Origin: an uncultured Pelagibacteraceae bacterium
GTDB lineage: Bacteria > Pseudomonadota > Alphaproteobacteria > Pelagibacterales > AG-422-B15
DNA length: 64,000 nucleotides
Assembly: GCA_902610585.1 (NCBI GenBank)
Contig: CACLWE010000002.1
Coordinates: 62,001-126,000, forward strand
Reading direction: 5' to 3'
The position numbers were made by a program, and so were the translations under genes. This document shows, piece by piece, positions 18,013 through 20,923 of this stretch. A model generated the notes under the pieces. The model was not told where the DNA came from. It was given only the letters and a program-made list of their open reading frames with translations, and made no database searches. The number at the start of each line of letters is the position of its first letter. Within the stretch, counting starts at the first letter, position 1.

Positions 18013-18405
18013 ATGAAAGATATCAAGCATTTTTTGAGACAAAACTCGCTAAGGCCAACCAAGCAGAGAGTGATTATAGCAAATTACTTATTTGACGGCG
18101 TAAATAAGCATGTAACAGCTGAAACTCTTTCAAATGAACTTTTGAAAATGAAAGCAGGCATATCCCTTGCTACAATTTATAATACCCTACACGACTTTTA
18201 TGAAAAAGGTCTTTTAAAGAAATTAATGATTAATTCTGAACGTATTTATTTTGATACTAATACCGAGCATCATCACCACTTTTATTCTAAAAAGGACCAA
18301 AAATTAATTGATATTAATGTAGACATGAAAGTGAGTGGTCTTCCAAAACCTCCAAAAAATAAAAAAATTAATAAGATAGAAGTTCTAGTTCACTTAGATA
18401 ATTAA
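18013..18405 (+). CDS. irr: Fur-family transcriptional regulator, Irr type
   Basis: Iron/haem-responsive regulator of the alphaproteobacterial Irr subgroup. It has 130 residues. A winged-helix DNA-binding domain covers about 1-80 (LRPTKQRVIIANYLF and SLATIYNTLHDF). A histidine cluster HHHH at residues 86-89, followed by FYSKKDQKLIDI, matches the haem/metal-binding region of Irr. The N-terminal haem regulatory Cys-Pro motif known from Bradyrhizobium is absent, as it is in many Irr proteins. Adjacency to fabA-fabB-fabI is typical for irr. An Irr-type box lies 24 bases downstream, in front of the rubrerythrin gene. Confidence 0.88.
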   Translation: MKDIKHFLRQNSLRPTKQRVIIANYLFDGVNKHVTAETLSNELLKMKAGISLATIYNTLHDFYEKGLLKKLMINSERIYFDTNTEHHHHFYSKKDQKLIDINVDMKVSGLPKPPKNKKINKIEVLVHLDN

Positions 18406-18406
18406 T

Positions 18407-18421
18407 TGATAATAATTCTCA
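18407..18421. promoter_or_regulatory. TGA-N9-TCA element, possible second iron-regulator site
   Basis: TGATAATAATTCTCA fits the TGA-N9-TCA pattern described for RirA iron-rhodo boxes and also loosely resembles half of a Fur box. It lies just after the irr stop codon and 7 bases before the Irr-type box. The pattern has only six fixed bases, so chance is a real alternative. Confidence 0.25.
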
Positions 18422-18428
18422 ATATCAG

Positions 18429-18445
18429 TTTAGAACGATTCTAAT
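18429..18445. promoter_or_regulatory. Irr box (iron control element) upstream of rubrerythrin
   Basis: TTTAGAACGATTCTAAT contains the perfect palindrome TTAGAA-CGA-TTCTAA, which matches the known Irr/ICE architecture TTTAGAA-N3-TTCTAAA with one end mismatch. It sits 3 bases before a candidate -35 hexamer. Placement upstream of -35 suits activation at least as well as repression. The irr gene itself ends 23 bases upstream. Confidence 0.75.
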
Positions 18446-18448
18446 GTA

Positions 18449-18476
18449 TTGACTTTTTTCAAATCAATTATATCTT
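18449..18476 (+). promoter_or_regulatory. Candidate promoter of the rubrerythrin gene
   Basis: TTGACT (18449-18454) and TATCTT (18471-18476) are spaced by 16 bases directly after the Irr box. A strong Shine-Dalgarno sequence, AAGGAGAGA, lies at 18491-18499, 4 bases before the ATG. Confidence 0.5.
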
Positions 18477-18502
18477 TGCATTAACTTATTAAGGAGAGAC
18501 AA

Positions 18503-18922
18503 ATGACTGAATTAAAAGATAGTAAAACTTTGGATAATCTAAAAGCAGCATTTGCTGGTGAAAGCCAAGCAAATAGAAGATATCTATACTTTGCACAAAA
18601 AGCAGATGTAGAAGGCCACAATGATGTAGCGGCTGTGTTTAGATCAACTGCAGAGGGCGAAACAGGACACGCTCATGGACATTTAGAATTTATGGAAGAA
18701 GTTGGCGATCCTGCAACAGGAGAACCCATAGGTTCAACTGAGGAAAATTTAAAAGCTGCTATAGCTGGTGAAACTCATGAATATACTGATATGTATCCAG
18801 GCATGGCAAAGACTGCAAGAGAAGAGGGTTTTGACGAAATAGCTGATTGGTTTGAAACATTGGCTAAAGCTGAAAAGTCTCACGCAGGCAAATTCCAAAA
18901 AACATTAGACTCAATCGATTAA
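18503..18922 (+). CDS. Rubrerythrin-like diiron protein lacking the rubredoxin domain
   Basis: Ferritin-like four-helix diiron protein of 139 residues, probably a peroxide reductase. Iron ligands visible by pattern are E20, E53-x2-H56, E90/E93 and E124-x2-H127. Classical rubrerythrin carries a C-terminal rubredoxin domain with two CxxC motifs; this protein ends right after the diiron bundle, so electrons must come from another protein. The neighbouring Fe-S protein is a candidate donor. It has its own promoter with an Irr box, a strong ribosome-binding site and a terminator immediately after the gene, suggesting high, iron-controlled expression. Confidence 0.9.
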
Positions 18923-18925
18923 TTA

Positions 18926-18953
18926 AAAAGGGGCTTAAAAAGCCCCTTTTTTT
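18926..18953 (+). terminator. Strong Rho-independent terminator after rubrerythrin
   Basis: A 10-bp stem with a GGGGCT/AGCCCC core (AAAAGGGGCT / AGCCCCTTTT), a five-base loop and a seven-T run. It ends 5 bases before the ATG of the Fe-S protein, so that gene is expressed only by read-through, unless it has a cryptic start. This arrangement would give far more rubrerythrin than downstream protein. Confidence 0.85.
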
Positions 18954-18958
18954 CTATC

Positions 18959-20299
18959 ATGGACACAAAAAAAGAAGGCAGCTTATCTGCACCTACACGG
19001 GATATTGTAAATTGGAACTCAGATGAATATCTAGATGAAAAAGATTTAGATGCTGAGATGCGTCGACAGTTCGAAGTTTGTCATAGTTGCCGAAGGTGCT
19101 TTAATCTCTGTGATAGTTTTCCAACATTATTTGATTTTATTGACGACTCTCCAAATGAGTCAGTTGATGATTTAACAAAAAAACATTTTGAGGATGTTAC
19201 AGATAAATGCACATTATGTGATATGTGTTTTATGACTAAATGTCCTTACGTACCGCCACATGAATTTAATATCGATTTTCCTCATCTGATGCTCAGATAC
19301 AGAACTTATCAAGAGAGTCAAAAAAAATTATCTAAAATTCCAAAAGAACTTGCCAAGATAGACCGAAATGCGAGCCTCGCAAGACTATCGCCCAGTATAG
19401 CTAATTGGTCATCTGATAAAAAAAATAAATTAACTAGAAGTCCGTTAGAACTTATGACAGGCATAGACAAAGATGCTGAATTACCTAAGTTCGAAAAAAA
19501 GTCATTTCATGGCAACTTCAAAAATATTTCTAATAATCTAAATACAAATGCTCCAGCTTATGGAAGAAAGGTCGCAATCTATTCAACATGTTATGTTAAC
19601 CATAATAATTCAAAAGTAGGAGTAGCAGCTAATAATGTTTTAAATTTTAATGGTGTGGAAACAATATCAACTTACCCAGGTTGTTGCGGAATGCCACATC
19701 TAGAGCAAGCACAGCATAAAAAAGTAAAAATTCAATCGGAAATCATCTCGGTAGAATTATGTAAACTTATCGATCAAGGTTATGACATAGTAACTCTCAC
19801 AGCCAGTTGTGGTTTAATGTTAAAATTTGAGTGGCCGTTAATTAACCCAGAAAATAAAAATGTTAAACGGCTATCAAAGCATGTTTTTGACATTGATGAA
19901 TATATTGTTGATATAGCTAAAAAAGAAGGACTTGTTGATGGCTTACAATCTTTTGACGATGGAATTACTGTTCACAACGCCTGCCATGCTAGGGCGCAAA
20001 ATATGGGTAATAAAGCACTAGAAATGTTGAAAAAAATTCCCGAAACCAAAGTAGATGTTGTTGAAAAGTGCGCTGGACATGGAGGAACTTTTGGGGTTAT
20101 GAAAAAAACAAGAAAGTCGGCAATTAAATACGGCAGGGCGACTGCTCGTCAAATCCGAAACAAAAAAAATAAGTATATGGTCTCGGACTGCCCTCTTGCT
20201 TGTAAGCATTTAAATGAATTTTTAAATGAAGATAAAGATACAAAATATATTTCATTGCACCCAATAGAAGTTATAGCAAAATCCTATAATTTAACTTGA
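18959..20299 (+). CDS. Two-cluster Fe-S protein with CCG domains (GlpC/HdrD-like)
   Basis: Soluble iron-sulfur protein of 446 residues. Two [4Fe-4S]-type motifs lie near the N-terminus: C41/C44/C47/C51 (CHSCRRCFNLC) and C84/C87/C90/C95 (CTLCDMCFMTKCPY). Two cysteine-rich CCG-like domains follow; the first is complete (YPGCCGMPHLEQ) and the second has CAGHGGTFG, with only one of the usual paired cysteines. This resembles GlpC and heterodisulfide-reductase subunit D. It starts 5 bases after a terminator, without a Shine-Dalgarno sequence. Placement between rubrerythrin and a DUF3501 gene is a recurrent arrangement and suggests electron delivery to the diiron protein; that role is inferred. Confidence 0.85.
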   Translation: MDTKKEGSLSAPTRDIVNWNSDEYLDEKDLDAEMRRQFEVCHSCRRCFNLCDSFPTLFDFIDDSPNESVDDLTKKHFEDVTDKCTLCDMCFMTKCPYVPPHEFNIDFPHLMLRYRTYQESQKKLSKIPKELAKIDRNASLARLSPSIANWSSDKKNKLTRSPLELMTGIDKDAELPKFEKKSFHGNFKNISNNLNTNAPAYGRKVAIYSTCYVNHNNSKVGVAANNVLNFNGVETISTYPGCCGMPHLEQAQHKKVKIQSEIISVELCKLIDQGYDIVTLTASCGLMLKFEWPLINPENKNVKRLSKHVFDIDEYIVDIAKKEGLVDGLQSFDDGITVHNACHARAQNMGNKALEMLKKIPETKVDVVEKCAGHGGTFGVMKKTRKSAIKYGRATARQIRNKKNKYMVSDCPLACKHLNEFLNEDKDTKYISLHPIEVIAKSYNLT

Positions 20300-20329: not shown

Positions 20330-20923
20330 ATGCCAATCGAACAAAAAAAAATCGACTCATCAGATTTACTAGACTTAAATACATACATAAAAGAGCGTAA
20401 GGCAATTCGAAAAGAAGTTGTTGCAATGAAAAAAAATAGACGAGTAGAGTTAGGACCACATTCTACTTTCTACTTTGAAAACTTTTTTACAATGAAGGCT
20501 CAAATACAGGAAATGCTTTATATTGAAAAAGGGGGCGATGAACAATTAAGAGATGAGCTAGAGGCGTATAATCCCCTAATACCAAATGGTTCAGAATTAG
20601 TTGCAACATTCATGTTTGAAATAGATAATCCAATAACTAGAAAAAAAGTTTTGTCTTCTTTAGGTAATGTAGAAAATAAGACATACATAAAGGTTAATGG
20701 AAATAAAATTTTTGCTGTGCCTGAAAATGACGTAGATCGTACTGACAATTCAGGAAAAACATCATCGGTTCATTTTCTGCACTTTAAGTTTGAAGATCAT
20801 CATGTTAGAGATTTTAAAGATATGGATTGCACTGTTGAGATTGGAACCGACCACGAACACTATCCACATATTTCTGTACTTACTAATGAGGTAAAGGCTG
20901 CACTAATAAAAGATTTTGATTAA
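20330..20923 (+). CDS. DUF3501 family protein
   Basis: Cytoplasmic protein of 197 residues, function unknown. It matches my recollection of DUF3501: an N-terminal LNTYIKERKAIRKEVVAMKK helix, a central GPHSTFYFENFFTMKAQIQE segment, and a C-terminal VHFLHFKFEDHHVRDFKDMD histidine-rich stretch that could bind metal. It follows the Fe-S protein by 30 bases on the same strand. The rubrerythrin / Fe-S / DUF3501 trio is seen in several proteobacteria, so it probably serves the same redox or peroxide process. Its stop codon overlaps the convergent dut gene by 4 bases. Confidence 0.8.
   Translation: MPIEQKKIDSSDLLDLNTYIKERKAIRKEVVAMKKNRRVELGPHSTFYFENFFTMKAQIQEMLYIEKGGDEQLRDELEAYNPLIPNGSELVATFMFEIDNPITRKKVLSSLGNVENKTYIKVNGNKIFAVPENDVDRTDNSGKTSSVHFLHFKFEDHHVRDFKDMDCTVEIGTDHEHYPHISVLTNEVKAALIKDFD

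Follow-up and report, generated by a model that had tools for sequence, protein, structure and literature searches.

A predicted Irr box at a fixed distance from the rubrerythrin promoter beside irr in Pelagibacterales and other alphaproteobacteria

The irr-rbr locus

The stretch of DNA analyzed here (the window; 64,000 nucleotides) belongs to a SAR11-type assembly of 1.21 Mb that is 77% complete. In this window, irr (18013..18405, plus strand) points away from fabA, and the start of rbr (18503..18922, plus strand) lies 97 nt further on. Both genes are followed on the same strand by a terminator-like hairpin with a T run (18925..18951; -16.1 kcal/mol, z -3.4), a gene for a GlpC-like CCG-domain Fe-S oxidoreductase (18959..20299; assigned from domain and family profile matches), and, in the same cluster, a gene for a DUF3501 protein (20330..20923; Pfam 1.2e-59). 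The order irr-rbr-CCG-DUF3501 is also present in a Pelagibacter-like genome (the P. ubique-like G058) and in several other alphaproteobacteria, and the oxidoreductase is a possible electron donor to the rubrerythrin. The ATG of the CCG gene lies approximately 7 nt past the hairpin (region 18922-18962), which is strong but was not listed by a consensus terminator scan; its location directly before this ATG suggests that the downstream genes are reached by read-through and expressed at a lower level.

The product of irr (130 aa) is a Fur-family regulator (Pfam FUR 1.7e-18). Irr-type NCBIfam models rank first among the models of this family (IrrA 3.6e-43, Irr 8.2e-42; the next is PerRA, 2.4e-16), in agreement with a preliminary description of this locus, which had called the gene irr. 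IrrA scored 146.8 bits (cut-off 150) and Irr 142.3 bits (cut-off 170); the family name that we use therefore rests on the model rank, the locus, and the box described below. The protein contains an HHHH motif that includes the HxH haem motif (as TEHHHHF), and HHHxF is found in 43 of 73 Irr proteins from Pelagibacterales. It has no cysteine and hence no Cys-based haem regulatory motif.

The product of rbr (139 aa) consists of a rubrerythrin domain across its whole length (Pfam Rubrerythrin 3.5e-30), and the solved rubrerythrins 9onm and 4di0 match it over the full length with E of approximately 1e-70, which bears out the earlier naming of a rubrerythrin as the target gene. The NCBIfam equivalog model for two-domain rubrerythrins matched it only at model positions 1-145 of 194, and the score of 135.6 bits falls short of the cut-off (200). 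As judged from its sequence, the protein is a short, single-domain rubrerythrin with the diiron domain only and without a rubredoxin domain.

The Irr box

The perfect 6-3-6 palindrome TTAGAA-CGA-TTCTAA that had been reported at 18430-18444 can be read directly in the sequence. Its 17-nt extension, TTTAGAACGATTCTAAT (18429..18445, centre 18437), agrees with 13 of the 14 positions of TTTAGAA-N3-TTCTAAA, and boxes in the window's family score 13 to 14 of 14. The stop codon of irr has its last base at 18405, which leaves 23 nt up to the 17-mer, as previously stated. The rbr -35 hexamer TTGACT (18449..18454, plus strand; 5 of its 6 positions are invariant in the family) is followed after a spacer of 16 by the -10-like hexamer TATCTT (18471..18476, plus strand; 9/12 matches in the promoter scan). 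The gap of 3 bases to the -35 hexamer given in the preliminary description holds when counted from the 17-mer; from the 15-mer the gap is 4 nt. The site does lie upstream of the -35 hexamer, as described, and the distance from the box centre to the start of TTGACT is 12 nt. From the consensus match and the conservation detailed below, 18429-18445 is very probably an Irr binding site.

The palindrome itself is not diagnostic. The bare 15-mer occurs at two sites genome-wide, and so does a control pattern (not significant); the second exact TTAGAA-N3-TTCTAA (G000:C8:9327-9341, L002) lies within a 480-aa ORF. We therefore dropped the bare palindrome as proof of an operator. The 17-mer is more selective: when one mismatch and the right arm TTMTAAA were allowed in a genome-wide pattern search, the rbr site was the sole promoter-placed match in the 1.21-Mb assembly, and the one further match outside ORF interiors sits on an ORF start. 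The idea that this genome has a large Irr regulon was likewise dropped, because only the rbr promoter stands out at one mismatch. At two mismatches, an Irr-like box is present in the promoter of fbpA.

Conservation of the box and its position

Non-conservation in relatives had been set beforehand as the refuting test for this site; we looked for it and found the box kept in both the order and the class, which upholds its earlier classification as an Irr/ICE-type element. Among 32 distinct irr-rbr intergenic sequences from the family, 14 of 17 columns are invariant in the box, 3 of 26 in the leader, and 0 of 16 in the promoter spacer. Every one of the 50 irr-rbr loci examined in Pelagibacterales has its box centred at -12 relative to the first base of the -35 hexamer (the promoter scan chose another -35 in one locus, where the exact TTGAC anchor gave -12). 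This phase is kept even as the identity of Irr to that of the window drops to approximately 41%.

The same arrangement extends beyond the order. In other alphaproteobacterial genomes we collected 89 rbr loci, chosen as those that match the window's rbr best and hence no random draw of the class; irr is the direct upstream neighbour in 81 of them, and 68 of these 81 have a box with at least 11 of 14 positions. An exact TTGAC, the only form counted here, is located at +12 in 38 of 74 good-box loci versus 0.095 per offset elsewhere. The two genes also tend to occur together: of 385 genomes of the class, 175 have irr and rbr, 15 have only rbr, 66 have only irr, and 129 have neither (p 5e-35, with kinship not corrected for). 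A scan of 84,980 species for a perfect box, the phase, and TTGAC returned 55 stretches, every one from a record titled as alphaproteobacteria or unclassified Proteobacteria; 39 of them are irr-box-rbr, and the remaining ones include mbfA/VIT genes with a second box, katG, an NfuA-type gene, a peroxiredoxin gene, and small ORFs. Because most of the alphaproteobacteria examined keep this arrangement, we take it as a genuine and ancient regulatory link, not as a coincidental match.

The box follows irr. In genomes that bear irr, it is found before katG even where katG is not adjacent to irr (L147-L149), and katG of six irr-less SAR11 genomes (G053, G056, G057, G068, G078, and G096) has no box, the best match being 10/14. 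Among rbr loci in seven genomes without a detected irr, a set from which G209 was left out because it holds a partial irr, the box is missing in six. Genome G286 (L329) has a perfect Irr box before rbr and no detected irr, which may reflect a missing contig, a divergent irr, or a relic.

A Fur box beside the Irr box

Fur boxes typically have a consensus of the TGATAAT-N-ATTATCA type. The preliminary description had noted a second element, TGA-N9-TCA, between irr and the box; the element is present as TGATAATAATTCTCA at 18407-18421 (extended form TTGATAATAATTCTCAA, 18406..18422), and its identity as a Fur box had been missed. It agrees with 13 of the 14 specified positions of this 7-1-7 repeat, and we identify it as a Fur box. 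Its centre is 35 nt before the -35 hexamer and 23 nt before the centre of the Irr box. The near-identical TTGATAATCATTCTCAA is found before the gene for the periplasmic ferric-iron-binding protein (fbpA) in the window's genome and in its relatives. Of 59 relatives, 42 contain the Fur-box pattern, and the reversed control gave hardly any matches. At rbr this box is confined to the window's family, where it is strongly conserved in the irr-rbr loci; in the order comparison, it was absent from Pelagibacter-type rbr promoters.

The fbpA/sfuC-type promoter of this family likewise combines a Fur box and an Irr-like site, in an arrangement opposite to that at rbr: the Fur box is followed 36 bp downstream by the Irr-like site, which scores 11 to 12 of 14 (L107:1501-1567, corresponding to G000:C5:45873 onward, and L337, L341, L344, L347, L350, L355, and L360).

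Exchange of katG and rbr behind irr

The preliminary description had placed a rubrerythrin gene beside irr, which is correct for the window; it had missed the alternation with katG, which is the gene after irr in other Pelagibacterales. Among 97 Pelagibacterales genomes, 34 have katG, 53 have rbr, and none has both. The box is positioned differently in the two cases: at -12 before rbr, and between the -35 and the -10 or on the -10 (mostly +17 to +20) before katG, where the natural reading of its location is that of a repressor site. Some promoters of katG and some of rbr have both positions occupied. The Irr tree of Pelagibacterales requires at least four exchanges in this slot, and box position and occupant agree in all informative pairs, although the 5 independent pairs do not reach significance (median p 0.125). 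Tentatively, and with more doubt than confidence, the slot behind irr might represent a haem-coded choice of peroxide scavenger, either a haem-free rubrerythrin activated by Irr from -12 or a haem-bearing KatG repressed by Irr from the -10 hexamer, with the operator shifting along with the occupant. A universal rule by which KatG is repressed and Rbr activated was considered and is weakened by katG genes outside Pelagibacterales (L294 and L310) that have the box at -12 and no second box that we could see.

In one Pelagibacteraceae genome (L298), the gene behind irr is peroxiredoxin-like and has boxes at -12 and on the -10. In two genomes of the family genus g2 (L041 and L042, which equal L282 and L297), an rbr-type promoter with an Irr box at -12 lies behind irr, and the gene that follows is a 61-aa ORF of no assigned function instead of rbr; katG is elsewhere in the genome, and the Fur box of this promoter is intact in L041 and decayed in L042. 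Finally, in G019 (L079), which is filed in the window's genus, Irr groups with that of the Pelagibacter-type family and katG is in the slot after irr, possibly as a result of misplacement or transfer.

Direction of control

Haem-free Irr binds its boxes, haem either releases it or marks it for degradation, and the protein acts as a repressor or an activator depending on the position of the box (PMC7762939). Because the Irr protein of the window contains HxH and no cysteine, haem-driven release appears likelier than degradation. Under iron or haem shortage, Irr without haem would bind the palindrome as a dimer, approximately 47 nt before the estimated rbr start site. The constant phase next to the -35, with the centre near -47, suggests contact with the polymerase, so that the bound Irr would most likely recruit RNA polymerase and activate rbr at low haem or iron. 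As a result, a haem-independent peroxide scavenger would be made while haem for catalase-type enzymes is short. In the window's family, the Fur box 23 nt further upstream would add a ferrous-iron input; it is too far from the -35 for a direct block, and Fur therefore probably modulates Irr occupancy or activates. Overall, we consider it reasonably probable that Irr at approximately -47 activates rbr when haem or iron is low, with the Fur input added in this family.

Alternatively, Irr may repress or dampen rbr: a dimer abutting the -35 would hinder the polymerase at low haem, and rbr would be freed when haem and iron are ample, as is the case for bfr and mbfA, the known ferritin-like Irr targets, which are repressed. 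We regard this as rather unlikely, but it has a precedent. The gel-shift-confirmed Irr sites of Rhodobacter ccpA and suf P3 are located approximately 40-50 nt upstream of the start sites, and the effect there is a mild damping, with higher expression or induction at low iron when Irr is missing (PMC3413700, PMC6956336); by analogy, this is a hint contrary to activation. On the other hand, repression would not call for a single 12-nt phase kept throughout a whole class, and in SAR11 katG, where repression is the natural reading, the box sits on the -10. Expression data point the same way: under iron limitation, rbr mRNA (SAR11_0399) of P. ubique was up 1.57-fold (p 0.025; PMC2864753), which, together with the invariant phase, fits activation. 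This rise counts less toward activation than it might, because the effect is small and the rbr promoter of the P. ubique-like G058 carries, besides its -12 box (12/14), another and weaker one on the -10.

It is very improbable that Fur is the main user of this promoter through the adjacent TTGATAATAATTCTCAA and that the palindrome serves as another Fur-family site instead of a genuine Irr operator. The Fur box is indeed strongly conserved in the family and common to the fbpA promoter; however, rbr promoters outside the family keep the palindrome without a Fur box, and the palindrome goes with irr and not with fur: SAR11 genomes without irr mostly still give Fur-type matches but lack the Irr box. 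A chance match in AT-rich intergenic DNA, which the count of the bare 15-mer might suggest, is already excluded by the comparative data, as the box is conserved in family, order, and class, including perfect boxes in regions above 55% GC (L201, L221, and L241), and shuffled sequence reached 12/14 in only 4 of 4450 trials. Activation by Irr from its position upstream of the -35 stays our preferred reading.

Comparison with known systems

Both Irr boxes and the regulation of ferritin-like genes by Irr have been described before; one such target is MbfA, a membrane iron exporter that Irr represses. Rodionov et al. reportedly predicted alphaproteobacterial Irr regulons genome-wide in 2006, Rhodobacter among others, and may list some rbr sites. 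In the literature that we searched, the 2006 predictions aside, we did not find the class-wide irr-box-rbr unit with its fixed phase, the paired Fur box, or the katG/rbr exchange; some of these sites may have been predicted earlier. Irr is the main haem and iron regulator in many alphaproteobacteria, and what decides whether it activates or represses is ill defined. A promoter found across the class, in which a single Irr box stands at one fixed phase beside irr itself, offers a natural test bed for this question. It would also connect peroxide defence with haem status in SAR11, which are the commonest heterotrophs where the ocean is poor in iron. The exchange of katG and rbr suggests joint evolution of peroxidase type and operator position.

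As in the Irr control of mbfA, whose product is a membrane rubrerythrin-VIT protein, and of bfr, an Irr box precedes a gene for a rubrerythrin-domain or ferritin-like protein. Unlike MbfA, the rubrerythrin of the window is soluble and its box lies upstream of the -35, whereas the mbfA/VIT genes in our scan carry a second, downstream box. The position of the box resembles that in R. sphaeroides ccpA and suf P3, where Irr binding was observed and here is predicted; the target genes are different, and the damping there is mild (PMC3413700, PMC6956336). More generally, the locus shares with the Irr/ICE systems of Bradyrhizobium, Rhizobium, and Rhodobacter a Fur-family haem sensor, promoter boxes of the TTTAGAA-N3-TTCTAAA type, and target genes for iron handling and for defence against peroxide (PMC3413700, PMC7762939). 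It differs from them in that few promoter boxes were found in this small genome and in that one box, paired with a Fur box, keeps a constant 12-nt phase relative to the -35 of the gene adjoining irr.
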